Shown in pieces: positions 4,981 through 27,334 of a stretch of DNA of 64,000 nucleotides. The notes under the pieces were generated by a model, which saw only the letters and a program-made list of their open reading frames with translations, was not told the DNA's origin and searched no databases. The stretch is from Methanosarcina flavescens. Its GTDB lineage: Archaea > Halobacteriota > Methanosarcinia > Methanosarcinales > Methanosarcinaceae. Positions within the stretch are counted from its first letter, which is position 1. Each line of letters begins with the position of its first letter. The position numbers were made by a program, and so were the translations under genes. The DNA is taken from assembly GCF_001304615.2 (NCBI RefSeq), contig NZ_CP032683.1:2170001-2234000 (forward strand), given 5' to 3'.

Positions 4981-6468
4981 GTGGCAAAAAATAATGCAGT
5001 TGCAGGATTTAATGCACTTAATGGTGTAGAATTAAACCTTTTTACTAATGACGAACTTAAGGCAATTCACTATGCAACCATGGAAGTTCTGATGAACCCA
5101 GGTGTTCAGGTTTCTGATCCCGAAGCAAGGCAGATCTTCAAAGAAAATGGCTGCGAAGTCGACGAGAAAACCAACGTTGTAAAAATCCCTGAATATCTTG
5201 TAAGAAAAGCTCTTCAGCTTGCGCCTTCCAGATTTGTCCTCTGGGGCCGCGATAAAAAGAACAATACTGTCCAGGAATGTGGTGGTAAAGTGCACTGGAC
5301 CTGTTTCGGTACCGGTGTCAAGGTCTGCAAATACCAGGACGGCAAGTATGTAACAGTTGACTCCGTTGAGCAGGACATTGCAGATATCGCAAAACTCTGC
5401 GACTGGGCAGAGAACATTGACTACTTCTCACTACCAGTTTCTGCAAGGGACGTTGCAGGCCAGGGTGCACAGGATGTCCACGAAACCCTCACACCACTTG
5501 CAAACACCTCTAAACACTATCATCACATCGACCCCGTCGGCGAAAACGTCGAATATTACTGGGACATTGTAAAAGCATACTATGGCGGTGACGAAGAAGA
5601 GGCAAGGAAAAAACCGATTTTCTCCATGCTGCTCTGTCCGACCAGCCCGCTCGAACTCAGTGTCAATGCCTGCCAGGTTATTATTAAAGGCGCCCGTCTC
5701 GGAATTCCGGTTAACGTTCTGAGTATGGCAATGTCAGGCGGATCTTCTCCTGTTTATCTTGCAGGCACTCTTGTAACCCACAATGCCGAAGTGCTTTCAG
5801 GAATTGTGCTTGCCCAGTTGACTGTTCCAGGAAGCAAAGTCTGGTATGGAAGTTCCACAACTACCTTTGACCTGAAAAAAGGAACTGCTCCTGTCGGATC
5901 TCCTGAACTCGGCTTGATAAGCGGCGCTGTCGCGAAACTTGCCCAGTTCTATGGCCTACCCTCCTTTGTGGCAGGTTCCTAGTCTGATGCGAAGATCCCG
6001 GACAACCAGGCAGGACACGAAAAAACCATAACCACCCTCCTTCCAGCCCTTGCAGGAGCAAACACTATCTACGGAGCCGGAATGCTTGAGCTTGGAATGA
6101 CCTTCTCAATGGAGCAGCTGGTAATTGACAATGATATTATCAGTATGGTCAAGAAGGCTATGCAAGGAATTCCTGTCTCAGAAGAAACGTTGTCAGTGGA
6201 ATCCATCCAGAAAGTAGGCATCGGAAACAATTTCCTTGCCCTCAAACAGACCAGGCAGCTTATAGACTATCCTTCCAGCCCAATGCTCATTGACAGACGC
6301 ATGTATGGAGATTGGGCAGCAGCAGGCTCAAAAGATCTTGCAGCAGTTGCGCATGAAAAAGTAGAGGACATTCTTAAGAACCACCAGGTAAAACCAATTG
6401 ATGCAGATATCCTCAAGGATATGCAGGCTGTCGTGGACAGGGCTGATAAAGCCTTCAGAGGTATGTAA
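4981..6468 (+). CDS. mttB: trimethylamine methyltransferase MttB, pyrrolysine-containing
   Basis: MttB transfers a methyl group from trimethylamine to the Co(I) corrinoid of MttC, the entry step of TMA methanogenesis. The frame opens with GTG at 4981 after GGAGG and is interrupted by a single TAG at codon 334 (5980-5982), then continues in frame with [14 protein letters not shown] to the TAA at 6466-6468. Read through, the product is 495 residues, the exact family length, and the amber codon falls at the position of the catalytic pyrrolysine of M. barkeri MttB. Sequence on both sides of the TAG is equally conserved in character, so this is recoding and not decay. It lies 25 bases after mtbC and 25 before mttC, so the three genes are one operon. 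A standard gene caller will split it into a 333-codon gene and a 128-codon fragment starting at 6082. Confidence 0.97.
5980..5982 (+). other. in-frame amber codon read as pyrrolysine (Pyl334 of MttB)
   Basis: TAG inside mttB with uninterrupted coding on both sides. In MttB, Pyl is thought to bind and orient the methylamine for attack by Co(I). No equally close alternative stop follows, so termination here would yield a protein lacking its last third. Confidence 0.96.
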
Positions 6469-20272: not shown

Positions 20273-22426
20273 GTGCTAATAGTGGAGAAAAAGAGAATGG
20301 TCGATGAAAAGAGCAAAGATGAGCAGTTAGAGATGTTCCGTGAAGACCCTGAGCGTGAGTTCCTGACAACAAATCAGGGTGTCAGGGTCATTAATACAGA
20401 TATTTCGCTCAAGGCAGGGGAAAGGGGTCCAACCCTGCTTGAAGATTTCCATTTCAGGGAGAAATTAACTCATTTTGACCATGAGCGAATCCCGGAAAGG
20501 GTTGTTCATGCCCGTGGTTCCGGAGCACACGGGTATTTCCAGGTCTATGAGCCTATGACGGAATATACGAGTGCAAAATTCCTGCAGGATCCCAATAAGA
20601 AAACGCCTGTCTTTGTACGGTTTTCGACGGTTGTGGGTTTTAGAGGTTCGGCTGATACCGTGAGAGATGTTCGGGGTTTTGCGACAAAGTTCTACACTGA
20701 GGATGGGAACTATGATCTTGTCGGCAATAACATTCCTATCTTTTTCATCCAAGACGCAATCAAATTTCCTGACCTTGTCCACGCAATTAAACCCGAGCAG
20801 GATAACCAGATACCTCAGGCTTCGGCAGCTCATGATACATTCTGGGATTTTGTCGCCTGCCACCCAGAAAATGCACACATGATCATGTGGGTTCTTTCCG
20901 ATCGTGCGCTCCCCAGGAGTTACCGCATGATGCAGGGCTTTGGGGTTAACACCTTCCGCTTCGTTAATTCGGAGGGTAAGGGAAGATTTGTAAAGTTTCA
21001 CTGGAGACCTCTGCTTGGCATTCACTCGCTTGTCTGGGACGAAGCTCAGAAGATAGCAGGAAAAGATCCTGATTTTAACCGACGTGACCTGTGGGAAGCA
21101 ATTGAGATGGGAGACTTTCCAGAATATGAGTTTGGAGTGCAGATCCTGGAGGAAGAGGATGAGTTTAAATTTGACTTCGATATCCTCGATCCCACCAAGA
21201 TCTGGCCGGAAGAAGACGTGCCCATTAAATGGATAGGGAAAATGACCCTTAACCGCAACCCTGACAACTTCTTTGCTGAAACCGAACAGGTTGCGTTCTG
21301 CCCGGCAAATGTGGTTCCTGGGATCGACTTCTCTAACGATCCGCTTCTTCAGGGACGCCTTTTCTCATATCTCGATACTCAGCTAATCCGCCTAGCCGGT
21401 CCGAATTTCCATGAAATTCCGATTAACCGACCGCTGGCGCCTATAGCCAATAATCAGAGGGAAGGTTATCACCGTACAAAGATAAACAAAGGCAAGGCAA
21501 GTTATTTCCCTAACACGGTAGGAGAAAACCTCCCGCGTCCTGCCTCTGCAGAAGAAGGTGGATACGCCCACTATATGGAGAAAGTAGAAGGAAAAATAAT
21601 CCGCGCCCGCAGTGAAAAATTCAAGGACTTTTACAGCCAGGCAAAATTGTTCTGGAACAGTATGTCGGAGCCGGAAAAGAAGCACATCATAGAGGCATTC
21701 CATTTTGAAGTTGGAAAAGTCAATGATAAAAATATACGGAAGGCAGTTGTTGATATGTTCAACAATGTAGACGGAGATCTTGCAATCGAAATTGCAAAGG
21801 GAGTAGGAGTTCCGGCTCCTGAGAAGAAAGGTGGATCTCCTGTCACGAAAGAGTCTCCGAATGTCAGCCAGGAGCGTTCGGAGCATACGGTGAAGAATAC
21901 CATTAAAACCAGAAGAATTGCCATCATTGCTGCGAATGGGTATAACCATAATGATGTCAGCCAGGTAATGCAGGCTTTAGAGGCTGGTGGAGCAAAAGCC
22001 CATATTATCTCTAAACACCAGGGGATGTTAAAGAGTTCAAGCGGAGAAAGTATCGAGGTTGATAAGAGCTATGTCACCACAGCCTCAGTATTGTACGATG
22101 CTGTATACATCCCGGGAGGAAAAGAGAATGTAGAGACCCTGAAAATGCAGGGAGACGCAATCCATTTCGTCAATGAGGCGTTCAGGCACTGCAAACCTCT
22201 TGGAGCAACCGGTGAAGGCGTCGAATTACTTAAAGCCGCAAACCTCCCTGATATACAATTTGCAGGGAAGGAATCAGCTGATAAGGAGATTCCTTTGATT
22301 TCCGATAAAGGTGTCGTGACGGCTGTTAGTGCGGAAGACAGGAGTGCTTTTAATGAGTCCTTCACTACTGCAATTGCAAAGCACCGTCACTGGGATAGGG
22401 AAAAGAAAGAACAGGTTCCAGCTTGA
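20273..22426 (+). CDS. katE: large-subunit (clade 2, HPII-type) heme catalase
   Basis: A 717-residue catalase that dismutates hydrogen peroxide. The catalytic His lies in [13 protein letters not shown] (about residue 82), Asn in GNNIPIFF, and the proximal heme Tyr in [11 protein letters not shown] (R-x3-Y). After residue 560 there is a linker and a DJ-1/PfpI-like flavodoxin-fold domain ([16 protein letters not shown] to [10 protein letters not shown]), which only large-subunit clade 2 catalases have. In a strict anaerobe this is an oxygen-defence enzyme, most likely acquired from bacteria, because large-subunit catalases are mainly bacterial and fungal. GTG 20273 is a possible start; ATG at 20297 ([10 protein letters not shown]) is the alternative. 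It is followed by a clear terminator and a mobile-element cluster. Confidence 0.95.
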
Positions 22427-22581: not shown

Positions 22582-23589
22582 GGCTCTGTAGAAATCCTCT
22601 AAATTCTGTTTTTACCCAAAAATTATAAAAATAAAATTGTAAAAATGCTCCTTAATTTTTTTGTCCCCACAAAAAACAAAGGAGCAATTGCTATTGTCAT
22701 CAAATAAGTATATTAAATTTATTGATCTCAGTCTTAAAACGGTTCAGTCTTCCAGACTGAACCTTTACTCCTGCAAATATTCCAAACGTGTTTATACTCA
22801 ACATCAGCTTCTTGTTCTTGTTTTATTGAAGGAGTATATAAGTACAGACTACCGTGACTTTGTAGAACTTGTTGACCTCATGAACAATATAAAGGAAAAA
22901 CTTGACCTTGATAAGGTTCCTCATTACACTACTCTTCAAAAGTTTGTGTCCAGAATTCCCTCTTCATTGTTTAACCTAATTTTGTCAAAAACTCTAAAAC
23001 TATTTTACTCACATGGAGAAAAAGTTCTCATTACGGCAATTGATGCAACAGGATTTACGAGTTCTTATGCAAGTCATTATTATTCTAAGAGAACAGGGAA
23101 GCTCCGAAGGAGCTTCCTTAAAACTTCAATATCAGTAGACACTATTAAAAAAGTAATATTAGGATGGAAAATTAGCCAAAAAACAGATCATGATGTCAAG
23201 CATGCAAAGACTCTGATAAGACAATCAAACAAGTCAAGAAAGTCTCAATGTTATGTGATGGATAAAGGATATGATTCCGAAGAAATTCATACTCTAATAA
23301 GAGAAGAGATAAAAGCAGATTCAATAGTACCTTTGAGAGAAAGAAAAAGAAAGAGAATAAACGGAAAATATAGAAAACAATTAAACAAAGACTTTGATAA
23401 GATCAAATACAATAGAAGGAATATAGTAGAGACAATAATATCTGTTGTAAAAAGAAAATTTGGAGAAACATTAAGAGCAAGAAAGGTTAGAAATCAAGTA
23501 AAAGAAGTAAAAGTTAAACTAATAGTCTATAATATAAACAAAAAAGTAATACAATTATTATGGATTAAATTAAGGATTTCTACAGAGCC
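22582..23589 (+). mobile_element. IS element copy 1 (1008 bp, IS5-like, 8-bp target duplication)
   Basis: Ends are GGCTCTGTAGAAATCCT and AGGATTTCTACAGAGCC, a perfect 17-bp inverted pair. The flanking octamer CTATATTT is at 22574-22581 and 23590-23597. A second, almost identical copy is at 44481-45486 with its own duplication AGTTTTTT. The near identity of the two copies shows recent activity. An 8-bp duplication and the transposase type fit the ISH1-like branch of the IS5 family, by general knowledge. Confidence 0.92.
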
Positions 23590-23623
23590 CTATATTTGGC
23601 TCCGTAGAAATCCTCTTAAATAG
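22661..23623 (+). CDS. DDE transposase of IS copy 1, N-terminus frameshifted
   Basis: A DDE transposase of about 320 residues: AIDATGF (first Asp), [10 protein letters not shown] (second Asp, D-x-G-Y-D), and [18 protein letters not shown] (the Y/R-x3-E region). The natural start, seen in copy 2, is the ATG at 22645 ([10 protein letters not shown]). Here a T-run between 22656 and 22662 has one extra base, so that ATG is out of phase; the frame from TTG 22661 ([11 protein letters not shown]) is what remains. The gene has no stop inside the IS: translation leaves through the right end, the duplicated octamer and into the neighbouring MITE, adding [11 protein letters not shown] before a TAG. Activity of this copy is uncertain because of the start. 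Confidence 0.9.
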
Positions 23624-23742: not shown

Positions 23743-24561
23743 TTACCTGAGAGTTAGTCCCTCAAGAGCCAGTGTATACTCTTTATTCGTTTCACTGTAG
23801 CTCAAGGAGTAACTTGTGGGATAATAGGAACTTGTCGGATAACATTTCGGAAGCTTGAGTTCTTTTGTTACCTCTGGTTTTGTCTCAAGGAAAGCTATTG
23901 TAACCATAGGTTCGACAAAAACCATTTCCCCGTTATAAAACCCATAAATAAAAGTCTCATTAAAAGGCTGTCCGTTAAACTCAGGAGCTTTCGGGTCTAT
24001 CCAGTGTGCTCCCATTCTGGGCACTCCTCCTGGCGTGGGAACATATCCCTCCGGAATATATTCTGATGCCGGCATTTTTGATAAGTTCTTACAATCTTCC
24101 CCGGTCGCTGTGATCTTATCTCTTTCCTCAGGGGTTATCATGTAAAAATGAACATCAAAGTGCGGCTTATCATAAATTCCCTGAGGTTCATGTCCATGAG
24201 GATTCCAGTCAATCCCAATGTGGTTATAAGCTGTGGAAGCAGCTTCTTCCGGCAGAGAAAGTGTGTACTCCACAGTTCTTCCTTCAGGATGTCCTTCCAG
24301 AGCTGATTCTGTAAAGTTTACTCCTATTGACGAGGGATTTCCTTCATTGTCAAGCTTAACCCAGGAATAAGCAACTCCGCTGCCCAGGGTTTTACTTTCC
24401 CCCTCAAACATTCCCATTTGAGGTGGCTTAACAAAGCATTTTTCTTTTTGTTGTTGGGTCTCCGCCATTGCACAGCCGGAAAAGAGAACAGCAACTACCG
24501 TGAGTATACAGAAATAACATGTCAATTTTCTTCCCTTCGTATTACTCCCCCCACATAGCAT
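23743..24561 (-). CDS. secreted lipoprotein, probably DUF5602-type
   Basis: A protein of up to 272 residues with an N-terminal signal ending in a lipobox (VVAVLFSGCAMA, Cys about residue 30), so it is exported and probably lipid-anchored. The mature part includes DWNPHGHEP and KPHFDVHFYMITPEERD, a His-rich metal-binding-looking region seen in DUF5602/TTHB210-like proteins. No enzymatic function is known. Its 3' end lies 25 bases from the MITE. The precise start is unsure: ATG 24559-24561 opens the frame, but a strong GGGGGGAG lies just inside it. It is on the same strand as, and 36 bases after, the iscU-like gene, so it may be the last gene of that operon. Confidence 0.65.
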   Translation of the reverse strand: MLCGGSNTKGRKLTCYFCILTVVAVLFSGCAMAETQQQKEKCFVKPPQMGMFEGESKTLGSGVAYSWVKLDNEGNPSSIGVNFTESALEGHPEGRTVEYTLSLPEEAASTAYNHIGIDWNPHGHEPQGIYDKPHFDVHFYMITPEERDKITATGEDCKNLSKMPASEYIPEGYVPTPGGVPRMGAHWIDPKAPEFNGQPFNETFIYGFYNGEMVFVEPMVTIAFLETKPEVTKELKLPKCYPTSSYYPTSYSLSYSETNKEYTLALEGLTLR

Positions 24562-24597: not shown

Positions 24598-25239
24598 TCA
24601 CGCTGTAAACACCACATCAACCTTTTCTACATCCCACAGAGACCCAAGTTTTTCTACAATATCCTCTTTTATCGCCGGAGCAAACTGGTGGTTTGCAGGC
24701 AGGTCTACTACCACTCTTACCGCTCCATCTTCAACGCTAATTTTAAGGATCAGGTTTGTGCGGATGACGTCAAGCCCTGTTAGAGGGTTCATTACGTGTT
24801 TGAGCCTCTTTTTTACAACTTCTTCAGTTGTAGGCTCTTTCTCGGTTATAAGTCCGTGTTTTTCCTCATAATCTTTGATTGCAGCGCGCAGGCCCTCAAC
24901 TGCGAGCACTGAACAGTGGGCTTTGACCGGAGGCAATCCTCCAAGTTCCTCCGCAGCCTGCTTCCATGTTATCTTTTTTGCTTCATCAAGGGTTTTTCCG
25001 CGTGCAAGGTCTGTTATGATCGAGGCTGTGGCAATATTTGAGGCACAGCCGTAAGATTCGAATTTTATATCTTCAATAACCTTGGTATCTGGATTGACCT
25101 TGATATAAACGGCAACCATGTCTCCGCAAGCCGGGCTTCCTTCAAGACCTTTTCCGTCAGGATTCTCCATCTTTCCTACATTATGCGGATTCTTGAAATG
25201 CTCCAGCACTTTTTGACTGTAAGGAAACTTCATTGTCAC
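24598..25239 (-). CDS. IscU/NifU N-domain scaffold fused to a MIP18 (DUF59) domain
   Basis: A 213-residue protein. Residues 1-130 are an IscU scaffold with all ligands: PACGD (Cys38, Asp40), SYGCA (Cys65) and AHCSVLA (Cys109). Residues about 142-213 (KRLKHVMNPLTGLDVIRTNL to WDVEKVDVVFTA) match the MIP18/DUF59 fold found in SufT and in ApbC-linked Fe-S carriers. Plain IscU is about 130 residues, so the fusion joins cluster assembly with a transfer module in one chain. It lies 69 bases after the IscS-like gene on the same strand. Assembly of 2Fe-2S or 4Fe-4S clusters in the cytoplasm is the expected role; the sulfur donor is the open question (see next gene). Confidence 0.88.
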   Translation of the reverse strand: MTMKFPYSQKVLEHFKNPHNVGKMENPDGKGLEGSPACGDMVAVYIKVNPDTKVIEDIKFESYGCASNIATASIITDLARGKTLDEAKKITWKQAAEELGGLPPVKAHCSVLAVEGLRAAIKDYEEKHGLITEKEPTTEEVVKKRLKHVMNPLTGLDVIRTNLILKISVEDGAVRVVVDLPANHQFAPAIKEDIVEKLGSLWDVEKVDVVFTA

Positions 25240-25307: not shown

Positions 25308-26462
25308 TCATTTCCTCGCAAGTGGGCTTATCTCCCTGAGCCTTGCTACTATCTCACTCATTGCTTCAATTGCTGCATCAACGTCTTCCATGCGGTTGTA
25401 GCGCCCGAGGGTAAAACGTACCGAACCATGTGCTCTCTCATGGTCTCCTCCGATACCCCTGATTACATGGCTGGCTTCAAGGGAGCGGCTGAAACATGCA
25501 GAACCCGTGCTTACTGCAAACCCTCTCATGTCCATATGCAGAGTTACGGATTCGCCCTCAACATAATGAAAAGTCAGGTTTGCGTTCTGAGGCAGGCGCT
25601 CTTCCCGGCTTCCGTTCAGGGTAACATCAGGAATATCCGAGAGAGCTTTGTCAATAACCCGATCTCTCATGGCTTTGAGCCTTATGTTTTCCTCTTCGGT
25701 TACGAGCTCGACAGCTTTTGCAAAACCGACCGCAGACGGAATATCTTCCACCCCTGCCCTCAGGTTAAATTCCTGGAAACCCCCGTCCATGAACTTGGTT
25801 ATTGGGGTATCTTTCCGAATGTAAAGAGCGCCCACCCCCCTTGGGCCGTGAATAGTATGGGCAGACATGGTGATCAGGTCTACAGGTAGTTCCTTTACAC
25901 TCAGGGGAAGCCTGGTAAAGCTATGAGTGGCGTCTGTGTGCAGGAGCACATCTTTCTCTTCGCAAATCTCGGAGATAGCTTTCAAATCCTGCACTGTCCC
26001 TATTTCCTGGTTACCGTGCTGGATTGAAACAAGAACTGTCTCCTTTGTGATTGCGTTTCTCAGCCCCTCTAGATTCACAAATCCTTCCGCATTCACATCA
26101 AGGAAAGTTACGCTAAAACCCTGCCTCTCAAGAGCTTTTGCAGTATTCAGCACAGGAAAATCTTCTATTGTCGAGACAATAATATGCTTTCCTTTCTTTT
26201 CTTTAAGAGCCCAGGCAACTCCTTTAAGCGCGGTATTGCTTGACTCGGTGGATCCTGAAGTGAAAATAACCTCCTCCCAATTTGCAGCAATCTTTGAAGC
26301 AATGCTTCCCCGGGACTTTTCTAGTGCTTCTTTTGCATCAATACCCATAGAATAGCCAAATTCTGATGTAGCTACTGCATAAGTATCAAAAAAATAGGGT
26401 TTCATCGCTTCAAGTACCTGCTCATCCATCCTCGTGGATGTAGAGTTATCAAGGTAAATCAT
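25308..26462 (-). CDS. cysteine desulfurase (IscS/NifS) homolog lacking the PLP lysine
   Basis: A 384-residue fold-type I protein clearly of the IscS/NifS family: MIYLDNSTST opening, FTSGSTESSN, NQEIG, and the mobile loop with the persulfide Cys in STGSACFSRSLEASHV (Cys323). But the PLP Schiff-base lysine, always in S-A-H-K, is Thr: SAHTIHGPRGVGALY (Thr203). The His that stacks on PLP (E-H) is Asp in STIEDFPVL (Asp101), and the Gln of DATQS is His in DATHS (His180). The cofactor site is thus dismantled while the persulfide Cys and overall fold are kept. It cannot be an ordinary desulfurase; a sulfur-carrier or adaptor role between TusA/DsrE and IscU is my inference. ATG 26462 matches the family start; the longer frame from TTG 26489 is less likely. 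Confidence 0.9.
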   Translation of the reverse strand: MIYLDNSTSTRMDEQVLEAMKPYFFDTYAVATSEFGYSMGIDAKEALEKSRGSIASKIAANWEEVIFTSGSTESSNTALKGVAWALKEKKGKHIIVSTIEDFPVLNTAKALERQGFSVTFLDVNAEGFVNLEGLRNAITKETVLVSIQHGNQEIGTVQDLKAISEICEEKDVLLHTDATHSFTRLPLSVKELPVDLITMSAHTIHGPRGVGALYIRKDTPITKFMDGGFQEFNLRAGVEDIPSAVGFAKAVELVTEEENIRLKAMRDRVIDKALSDIPDVTLNGSREERLPQNANLTFHYVEGESVTLHMDMRGFAVSTGSACFSRSLEASHVIRGIGGDHERAHGSVRFTLGRYNRMEDVDAAIEAMSEIVARLREISPLARK

Positions 26463-26668: not shown

Positions 26669-27088
26669 TTATATAAAGAGAGTTACACTAGCGCTTTTTG
26701 CCTCCTGAATATACGAACCAACAGCCCCCCATTCATCTATCCATTCCGTCTGAAGTTCATCTTTACTTAAACCCATGATTTCCATGGTCATCTCGCACGC
26801 GATTATTTTTCCCCCAAGTTCCTTGAAATCGCTCATCAATCTCTCAAGTGAAGCTACATTGGCTTTGTCCATTCTTTGCTTGATCATCTGCCTGCCAAGC
26901 CCCATCATATTCATCTTGGAAAGCGGCCCCTTGTCAAGCTCTCCTTTCTTCAAGCGCATTAATCCCCAGAAAGTAAAGTATATAGAGGCCTCCATACCCA
27001 TTGCCAGGGCTCCGTTCGCAATTATAAGCGCACTGTATACTTTATCCATATCGCCACTGTGCAGAATAATGACCGCTTTTTCCCCCAT
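26669..27088 (-). CDS. DsrE2-like (DsrE/DsrF family) sulfur-carrier protein
   Basis: A 139-residue protein. VIILHSGDMDKVYSALIIANGA is the nucleotide-like opening strand-loop of the DsrE fold, and IIACEMTMEIMGLSKDEL carries the conserved Cys98 in the ACxxSMxxMG-type motif of DsrE2/peroxiredoxin-family (COG2210) proteins. Such proteins accept and pass on persulfide sulfur, typically from TusA. It is 18 bases after the tusA-like gene and about 200 bases before the iscS-like gene on the same strand, so it belongs to the sulfur-relay operon. A long hydrophobic patch (FWGLMRL) suggests it may oligomerise or contact membrane. Confidence 0.88.
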   Translation of the reverse strand: MGEKAVIILHSGDMDKVYSALIIANGALAMGMEASIYFTFWGLMRLKKGELDKGPLSKMNMMGLGRQMIKQRMDKANVASLERLMSDFKELGGKIIACEMTMEIMGLSKDELQTEWIDEWGAVGSYIQEAKSASVTLFI

Positions 27089-27106: not shown

Positions 27107-27334
27107 TTATCTCCGGATCTTTATCTCCCACTCTTTCCCTCCTTCTTTATCTTCAATATCCAGCACTTCTAGCCCCATTGCCTCGCAGGCCATAGGAATT
27201 TCTTTTCTTGATGCTGGATGTGTCCCTTTTATAATAACAAGATCCCCTGGAGAAGCTTTCTTTAAGGCCTTCCTGCATTCTACCAGCGGAACCGGGCAGG
27301 TCTGCCCTCGAACATCGATTTCAACTTCTGTCAT
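27107..27334 (-). CDS. tusA: TusA-like sulfurtransferase
   Basis: A 75-residue TusA/SirA/YedF-fold protein. The signature CPVP is at Cys13 (VRGQTCPVPLVECRKAL), the persulfide-carrying cysteine. Length and beta-alpha-beta-alpha pattern are those of single-domain TusA. It is the first gene of the minus-strand operon tusA-dsrE-iscS-like-iscU-MIP18. In bacteria TusA takes sulfur from IscS; here the IscS partner lacks PLP, so sulfur may come from sulfide or another source, which is inference. ATG at 27332-27334 follows GGGGGGTAAG. Confidence 0.92.
   Translation of the reverse strand: MTEVEIDVRGQTCPVPLVECRKALKKASPGDLVIIKGTHPASRKEIPMACEAMGLEVLDIEDKEGGKEWEIKIRR

Follow-up and report, generated by a model that had tools for sequence, protein, structure and literature searches.

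Results

The locus

The window (the whole 64,000-nt stretch of Methanosarcina flavescens contig NZ_CP032683.1 that was analysed) carries, at 25308..26462 on the minus strand, a gene for a 384-aa homolog of IscS/NifS that lacks the lysine of cysteine desulfurases, here called iscS*. It begins with ATG at 26462, with GGGAGG before the start, and homology to the fold-type I family Aminotran_5 (4e-68) spans its full length. Upstream on the same strand lie genes for two sulfur carrier-like proteins, a tusA-like gene (27107..27334; 75 aa, with Cys13 in a CPxP motif; Pfam TusA, 1.9e-20) and, 18 nt further on, a dsrE2-like gene (26669..27088; 139 aa, with Cys98; Pfam DrsE_2, 4.4e-36). Downstream is an iscU-MIP18 fusion (24598..25239, minus strand; NifU_N, 1.7e-43, and FeS_assembly_P, 8e-14), 213 aa long if read from GTG at 25239. 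Since relatives of this protein start at MKFPY, the true start is probably the ATG at 25233. The IscU part has the Cys-Asp-Cys-His-Cys cluster site and the LPPxK motif of IscU scaffolds (here LPPVK).

The order tusA, dsrE2, iscS*, iscU-MIP18 had been taken, from the letters alone, for a complete operon. All three neighbours do adjoin iscS*, but the 206 nt between dsrE2 and iscS* might hold a second promoter, so a single operon is something we infer. Downstream of iscU-MIP18 is a TTHB210-like, lipoprotein-like gene (23743-24561, minus strand), and catalase-like and transposase-like ORFs, recognised by eye, lie next to the region at 20273-22426 and 22661-23623.

A rewritten PLP site in an intact fold

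Alignment with E. coli IscS places Thr203 (ACT, 25854..25856) at the Schiff-base lysine K206, Asp101 (GAT, 26160..26162) at the PLP-stacking H104, His180 (CAT, 25923..25925) at Q183 and Gln152 (26007..26009) at N155, all read from the minus strand. The iscS* protein has neither the Schiff-base lysine of a group I cysteine desulfurase nor its PLP-contacting His104, Gln183 and Asn155, and the GNPA of the E. coli protein is AVAT. The persulfide cysteine of the mobile loop is present (Cys323, TGT, 25494..25496; C328 in E. coli), and Asp177 and Arg349 (25416..25418) are likewise unchanged. The latter corresponds to E. coli R354, the substrate-carboxylate arginine. The phosphate-cup residues T76, S203 and H205 are mostly retained in the clade to which the window protein belongs.

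Curated family models place iscS* below their cut-offs, both for NifS (TIGR03402, 432.5 vs 530.75) and for IscS (TIGR02006, 381.1 vs 643.2). Its AlphaFold model, computed with 47 relatives as input, has a mean pLDDT of 92.9 and matches the structures of IscS, Nfs1 and Archaeoglobus fulgidus IscS with TM scores of 0.93-0.96; low confidence is limited to the Cys loop (322-327), as expected of a mobile loop. The sequence-only reading had named Thr for Lys, Asp for His and His for Gln in a protein that keeps the IscS fold and the persulfide cysteine, and the codons, the family match and the model agree with it on every one of these points.

The same reading had taken the replacements for selected change, and here too the evidence is on its side. 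The gene is under purifying selection, with dN/dS of 0.04-0.14 against Methanosarcina relatives and similar values for the neighbouring genes. A single base error does not explain Thr203, because ACT is two base changes from any lysine codon, and the absence of lysine is common to 91 distinct relatives. The chance that iscS* reflects a sequencing error or a decaying pseudogene is negligible, and we regard that explanation as refuted by the codon, conservation and dN/dS data; nothing in the window gene speaks for it, and among the relatives one MAG copy is frame-split. This copy, in a Methanosarcina MAG (L091, near 5001-6150), has iscS* in two frames, through either an assembly error or fresh decay.

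Two lysine-less clades

Relatives with 63-96% identity group in a single clade, here termed Thr-type (support 100/100; stem 0.77), which counts 91 distinct members once duplicates are removed. Position 206 (E. coli numbering throughout this section) is T in 86, L in 3, S in 1 and M in 1, and never K (0/91), whereas A36, D104, Q155, H183, C328 and R354 are each found in 91/91. The partner proteins are similarly constrained, with Cys13 of TusA conserved at 100%, Cys98 of DsrE2 at 99%, and the IscU ligands C38, D40, C65, H108 and C109 all at 100% in the clade. Its members come from Methanosarcinaceae and Methanofastidiosum among archaea, and from Chloroflexota, Myxococcota, Nitrospirota, WOR-3, Spirochaetota and Bacillota MAGs among bacteria. 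The sequence-only reading had fitted the variant to methanogens that take sulfur as sulfide, but this distribution rules out a methanogen-only trait. A plasmid search for spread of the module returned no match.

A second lysine-less clade, the Asp-type, includes A. fulgidus IscS and is archaeal (loci L136-L164, L169, L171-L172, L174, L177 and L205), with 34 distinct members. These have Asp206, Ala183 and Asn205, keep H104, and have L, V, E or I at the R354 position. The best tree separates the two clades, each with 100/100 support, though a common origin is compatible with the AU test (p = 0.28). Three further observations concern lysine-less proteins and their neighbours. One IscS (L187, near 2951) carries Glu where the lysine would be, falls inside the Asp-type clade and adjoins TusA and DsrE; in the A. 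fulgidus genome, a second DsrE2-like gene (L171:1590-2036) lies downstream of a second IscS copy; and an IscS of Candidatus Endomicrobium (L107, near 4926) has Val206, Ser183 and Ser205 and adjoins IscU without TusA/DsrE, a separate loss and perhaps decay.

Lysine loss goes with sulfur carriers

The sequence-only reading had proposed asking whether loss of the lysine tracks with the tusA-dsrE neighbours and the IscU-MIP18 fusion. For the neighbours it does, with no exception among lysine-bearing IscS. Within 3 kb of the IscS gene, TusA or DsrE2 is encoded at 78/91 Thr-type loci (both at 72/91), and a TusA and/or DsrE-family gene lies beside 33/34 Asp-type members, compared with 0/46 lysine-bearing group I IscS genes sampled from the same and other genomes, counted after duplicates and L003, a group II protein, had been taken out. 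Fisher's test gives about 1e-31 for a table that was not deduplicated and that ignores the relatedness of the sequences. In the best tree the linked lysine-less state arises twice, and even a single origin is compatible with the AU test, so the tight linkage reflects two long-maintained clades and not many independent events. The fusion behaves differently: it occurs within 3 kb of 88/91 Thr-type genes, while plain IscU adjoins 34/34 Asp-type genes, so that it marks the Thr-type clade only.

Nine of the 13 Thr-type loci without TusA/DsrE2 neighbours appear to be of the Methanococcoides type, and a tusA-dsrE2 pair occurs elsewhere in the genome in 9/9 Methanococcoides genomes searched. DsrE2 was found in 0/5 Methanosarcinaceae genomes in which the search gave no Thr-type gene.

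Other desulfurases and possible reductants

No other group I/II desulfurase was found in two Methanofastidiosum genomes, a Methanothrix MAG and a WOR-3 MAG, within the limits of MAG completeness; cysteine desulfuration by that family therefore cannot feed the module in those genomes. Most Methanosarcinaceae also carry ordinary IscS and/or SufS-type desulfurases, and these could load TusA from cysteine. Methanococcoides and relatives are without a second group I IscS, and we considered iscS* as their sole desulfurase; this was ruled out by proteins that score like the SufS-type protein of M. flavescens. M. flavescens itself has an ordinary IscS that is truncated to an N-terminal part and adjoins a quinolinate-synthase-like gene (L005, C1:146922-147209), possibly its decayed IscS2.

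At one WOR-3 locus the additional genes encode an Nfu protein of the NifU type, a regulator of the Rrf2/IscR family, a glutaredoxin, and a protein that resembles ferredoxin-thioredoxin reductase and has a rubredoxin-like domain. The last two also occur in five Chloroflexota loci (with the WOR-3 locus: L073, L076, L077, L079, L080 and L088) and in none of the lysine-bearing loci. These neighbours place the module in Fe-S assembly, and suggest the glutaredoxin and the reductase-like protein as candidate reductants for persulfide sulfur.

Discussion

So, is iscS* still a cysteine desulfurase? Full-length homology (39-48% identity), the fold, the Cys loop and an IscU neighbour are common to iscS* and group I IscS/NifS, but its four replaced key PLP residues, its TusA/DsrE2 linkage and its scores below the curated cut-offs set it apart. 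The features of the A. fulgidus type (lysine replaced, cysteine kept, IscU partner and TusA/DsrE neighbours) are all found at the window locus. A. fulgidus IscS (PDB 4EB5, 4EB7 and 4HVK; D199K mutant 4R5F) has the same fold and, like iscS*, IscU next door; it differs in having Asp for Lys, His104 kept, Ala183, Asn205 and Arg354 lost, with about 45% identity, and its IscU is plain where that of the window is fused to MIP18. The apparent ortholog in M. acetivorans is IscS1/IscU1 (MA0808/MA0807), with STGSACFS at 318-325 and an IscU1 of 24.2 kDa. According to a 2020 study, IscS1 is without the lysine and may work in the manner of A. fulgidus IscS, which is inactive owing to its lysine substitution and whose cysteine ligates the IscU cluster (PMC7585200).

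In its TusA and DsrE-superfamily carriers that partner an IscS, the module also resembles the IscS-TusA-TusBCD relay of E. coli, where IscS makes persulfide from cysteine and donates sulfur to TusA. That flow is the reverse of the one proposed here, and iscS* is without the residues to make persulfide. MIS and SMS, minimal two-component archaeal Fe-S systems, are akin to the module in minimality. However, MIS (MisS-MisU) is described with a cysteine desulfurase plus scaffold, whereas iscS* has no Schiff-base lysine, and SMS, which resembles SufBC, is not a relative of IscS.

We think it probable, though well short of certain, that the module is a minimal Fe-S assembly system in which iscS* works independently of PLP, as an acceptor of persulfide or a ligand of the cluster, and passes sulfur from TusA/DsrE2 to IscU. 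A PLP-free persulfide carrier or scaffold partner was also what the sequence-only reading had proposed, and with the residues replaced, Cys323 kept and TusA/DsrE2 linked, it is the best reading. Its observed basis consists of the residue replacement, the strict conservation, the gene linkage, the co-occurrence and the two lysine-less clades. Under this model iscS* would no longer perform PLP-dependent cysteine desulfuration. It retains the IscS fold, the mobile loop with Cys323 and, as partner, a conserved IscU. TusA Cys13 and DsrE2 Cys98 would carry sulfur as persulfides, and from them sulfur would flow to Cys323, whose thiolate may also, or instead, be a temporary cluster ligand as in A. fulgidus IscS. 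A cluster would then be built on IscU, and the fused MIP18 domain may help to pass it on. The first sulfur source is the least certain step, and we infer sulfide as the ultimate one; where a genome has no other desulfurase, the source is probably sulfide or polysulfide. Sulfide loading is chemically plausible, given that DsrE of Allochromatium can be persulfidated by sulfide alone (PMC3397948).

Several observations run counter to the carrier model: the PLP in 4EB5, together with the window clade's retention of Arg354 and, for the most part, of some phosphate-cup residues; the ordinary desulfurases of most Methanosarcinaceae; the reversed flow in E. coli; and the M. acetivorans proteome, in which only IscS2 and IscU2 were consistently detected (PMC7585200). 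PLP is modelled in 4EB5, a structure of the Asp-type protein, so lysine loss need not abolish PLP binding, and with most phosphate-cup residues and R354 kept, iscS* might be a slow cysteine desulfurase that uses non-covalent PLP or PMP to feed TusA, DsrE2 and IscU. We consider this highly improbable, since Lys, His104, Gln183 and Asn155 are all replaced and lysine substitution is reported to inactivate the A. fulgidus protein (PMC7585200).

The A. fulgidus (IscS-IscU)2 structure, with the IscS cysteine as ligand, and the same proposal for M. acetivorans IscS1 would also fit a purely structural partner, in which Cys323 ligates the IscU cluster and never carries sulfur, free sulfide entering directly, an idea already put forward for A. 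fulgidus IscS. This would leave unexplained why TusA/DsrE genes, with their invariant cysteines, are linked to both lysine-less clades and absent from the lysine-bearing loci sampled, and we judge it unlikely. The invariance of D101, Q152, H180 and R349 (91/91) at a site where the lysine position tolerates T, L, S and M indicates a pocket conserved in a new form and not merely relaxed. Such a pocket might bind another ligand or support other chemistry, making iscS* a new enzyme and not a carrier. But the Asp-type pocket is rewritten differently (H104 kept; A183, N205 and D206; R354 lost), which implies no shared new chemistry, and no ligand is known; a new enzyme seems to us distinctly unlikely.

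How much of this is new? The sequence-only reading's "undescribed" variant was partly in print, as lysine loss had been reported for M. acetivorans IscS1 (MA0808) and A. fulgidus IscS. Four genes next to M. acetivorans iscS1/iscU1 were termed "of unknown function", recombinant IscS1 was insoluble, and the factors that direct sulfide to Fe-S assembly were unknown (PMC7585200). In M. acetivorans SufBC was found to be dispensable, and no phenotype specific to sulfide was seen (PMC10500019); the minimal system SMS takes sulfide (PMC12192291). Among the open papers searched, we found none that links DsrE/TusA to IscU or to a lysine-less IscS. As far as these papers show, the clade-wide pattern appears to be new. 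It consists of the extension into bacteria, a pocket that is rewritten yet invariant, the fusion of IscU to MIP18 and, most of all, the linkage to TusA/DsrE that the two lysine-less clades have in common.

We describe the module as a variant of the ISC system; the interpretation drawn from the sequence alone is partly supported here and was partly anticipated in print. Automatic annotation is likely to label lysine-less IscS proteins as cysteine desulfurases, and so to mislead. The A. fulgidus structure serves as a model of IscS-IscU assembly though its IscS is reported inactive, and its family also has sulfur carriers. More tentatively, and at somewhat less than even chances, the two clades may represent an ISC mode that is widespread and, at least in part, independent of cysteine. 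IscS would have changed from producing sulfur to accepting it, and TusA and DsrE-family proteins would bring inorganic sulfur, derived from sulfide or polysulfide, to the IscS cysteine and from there to IscU. Were this true, Methanofastidiosum would have no ISC-type machinery besides it. TusA, DsrE2, IscS* and IscU are now named, genetically testable candidates for the sulfide feeding of Fe-S assembly in anaerobes.
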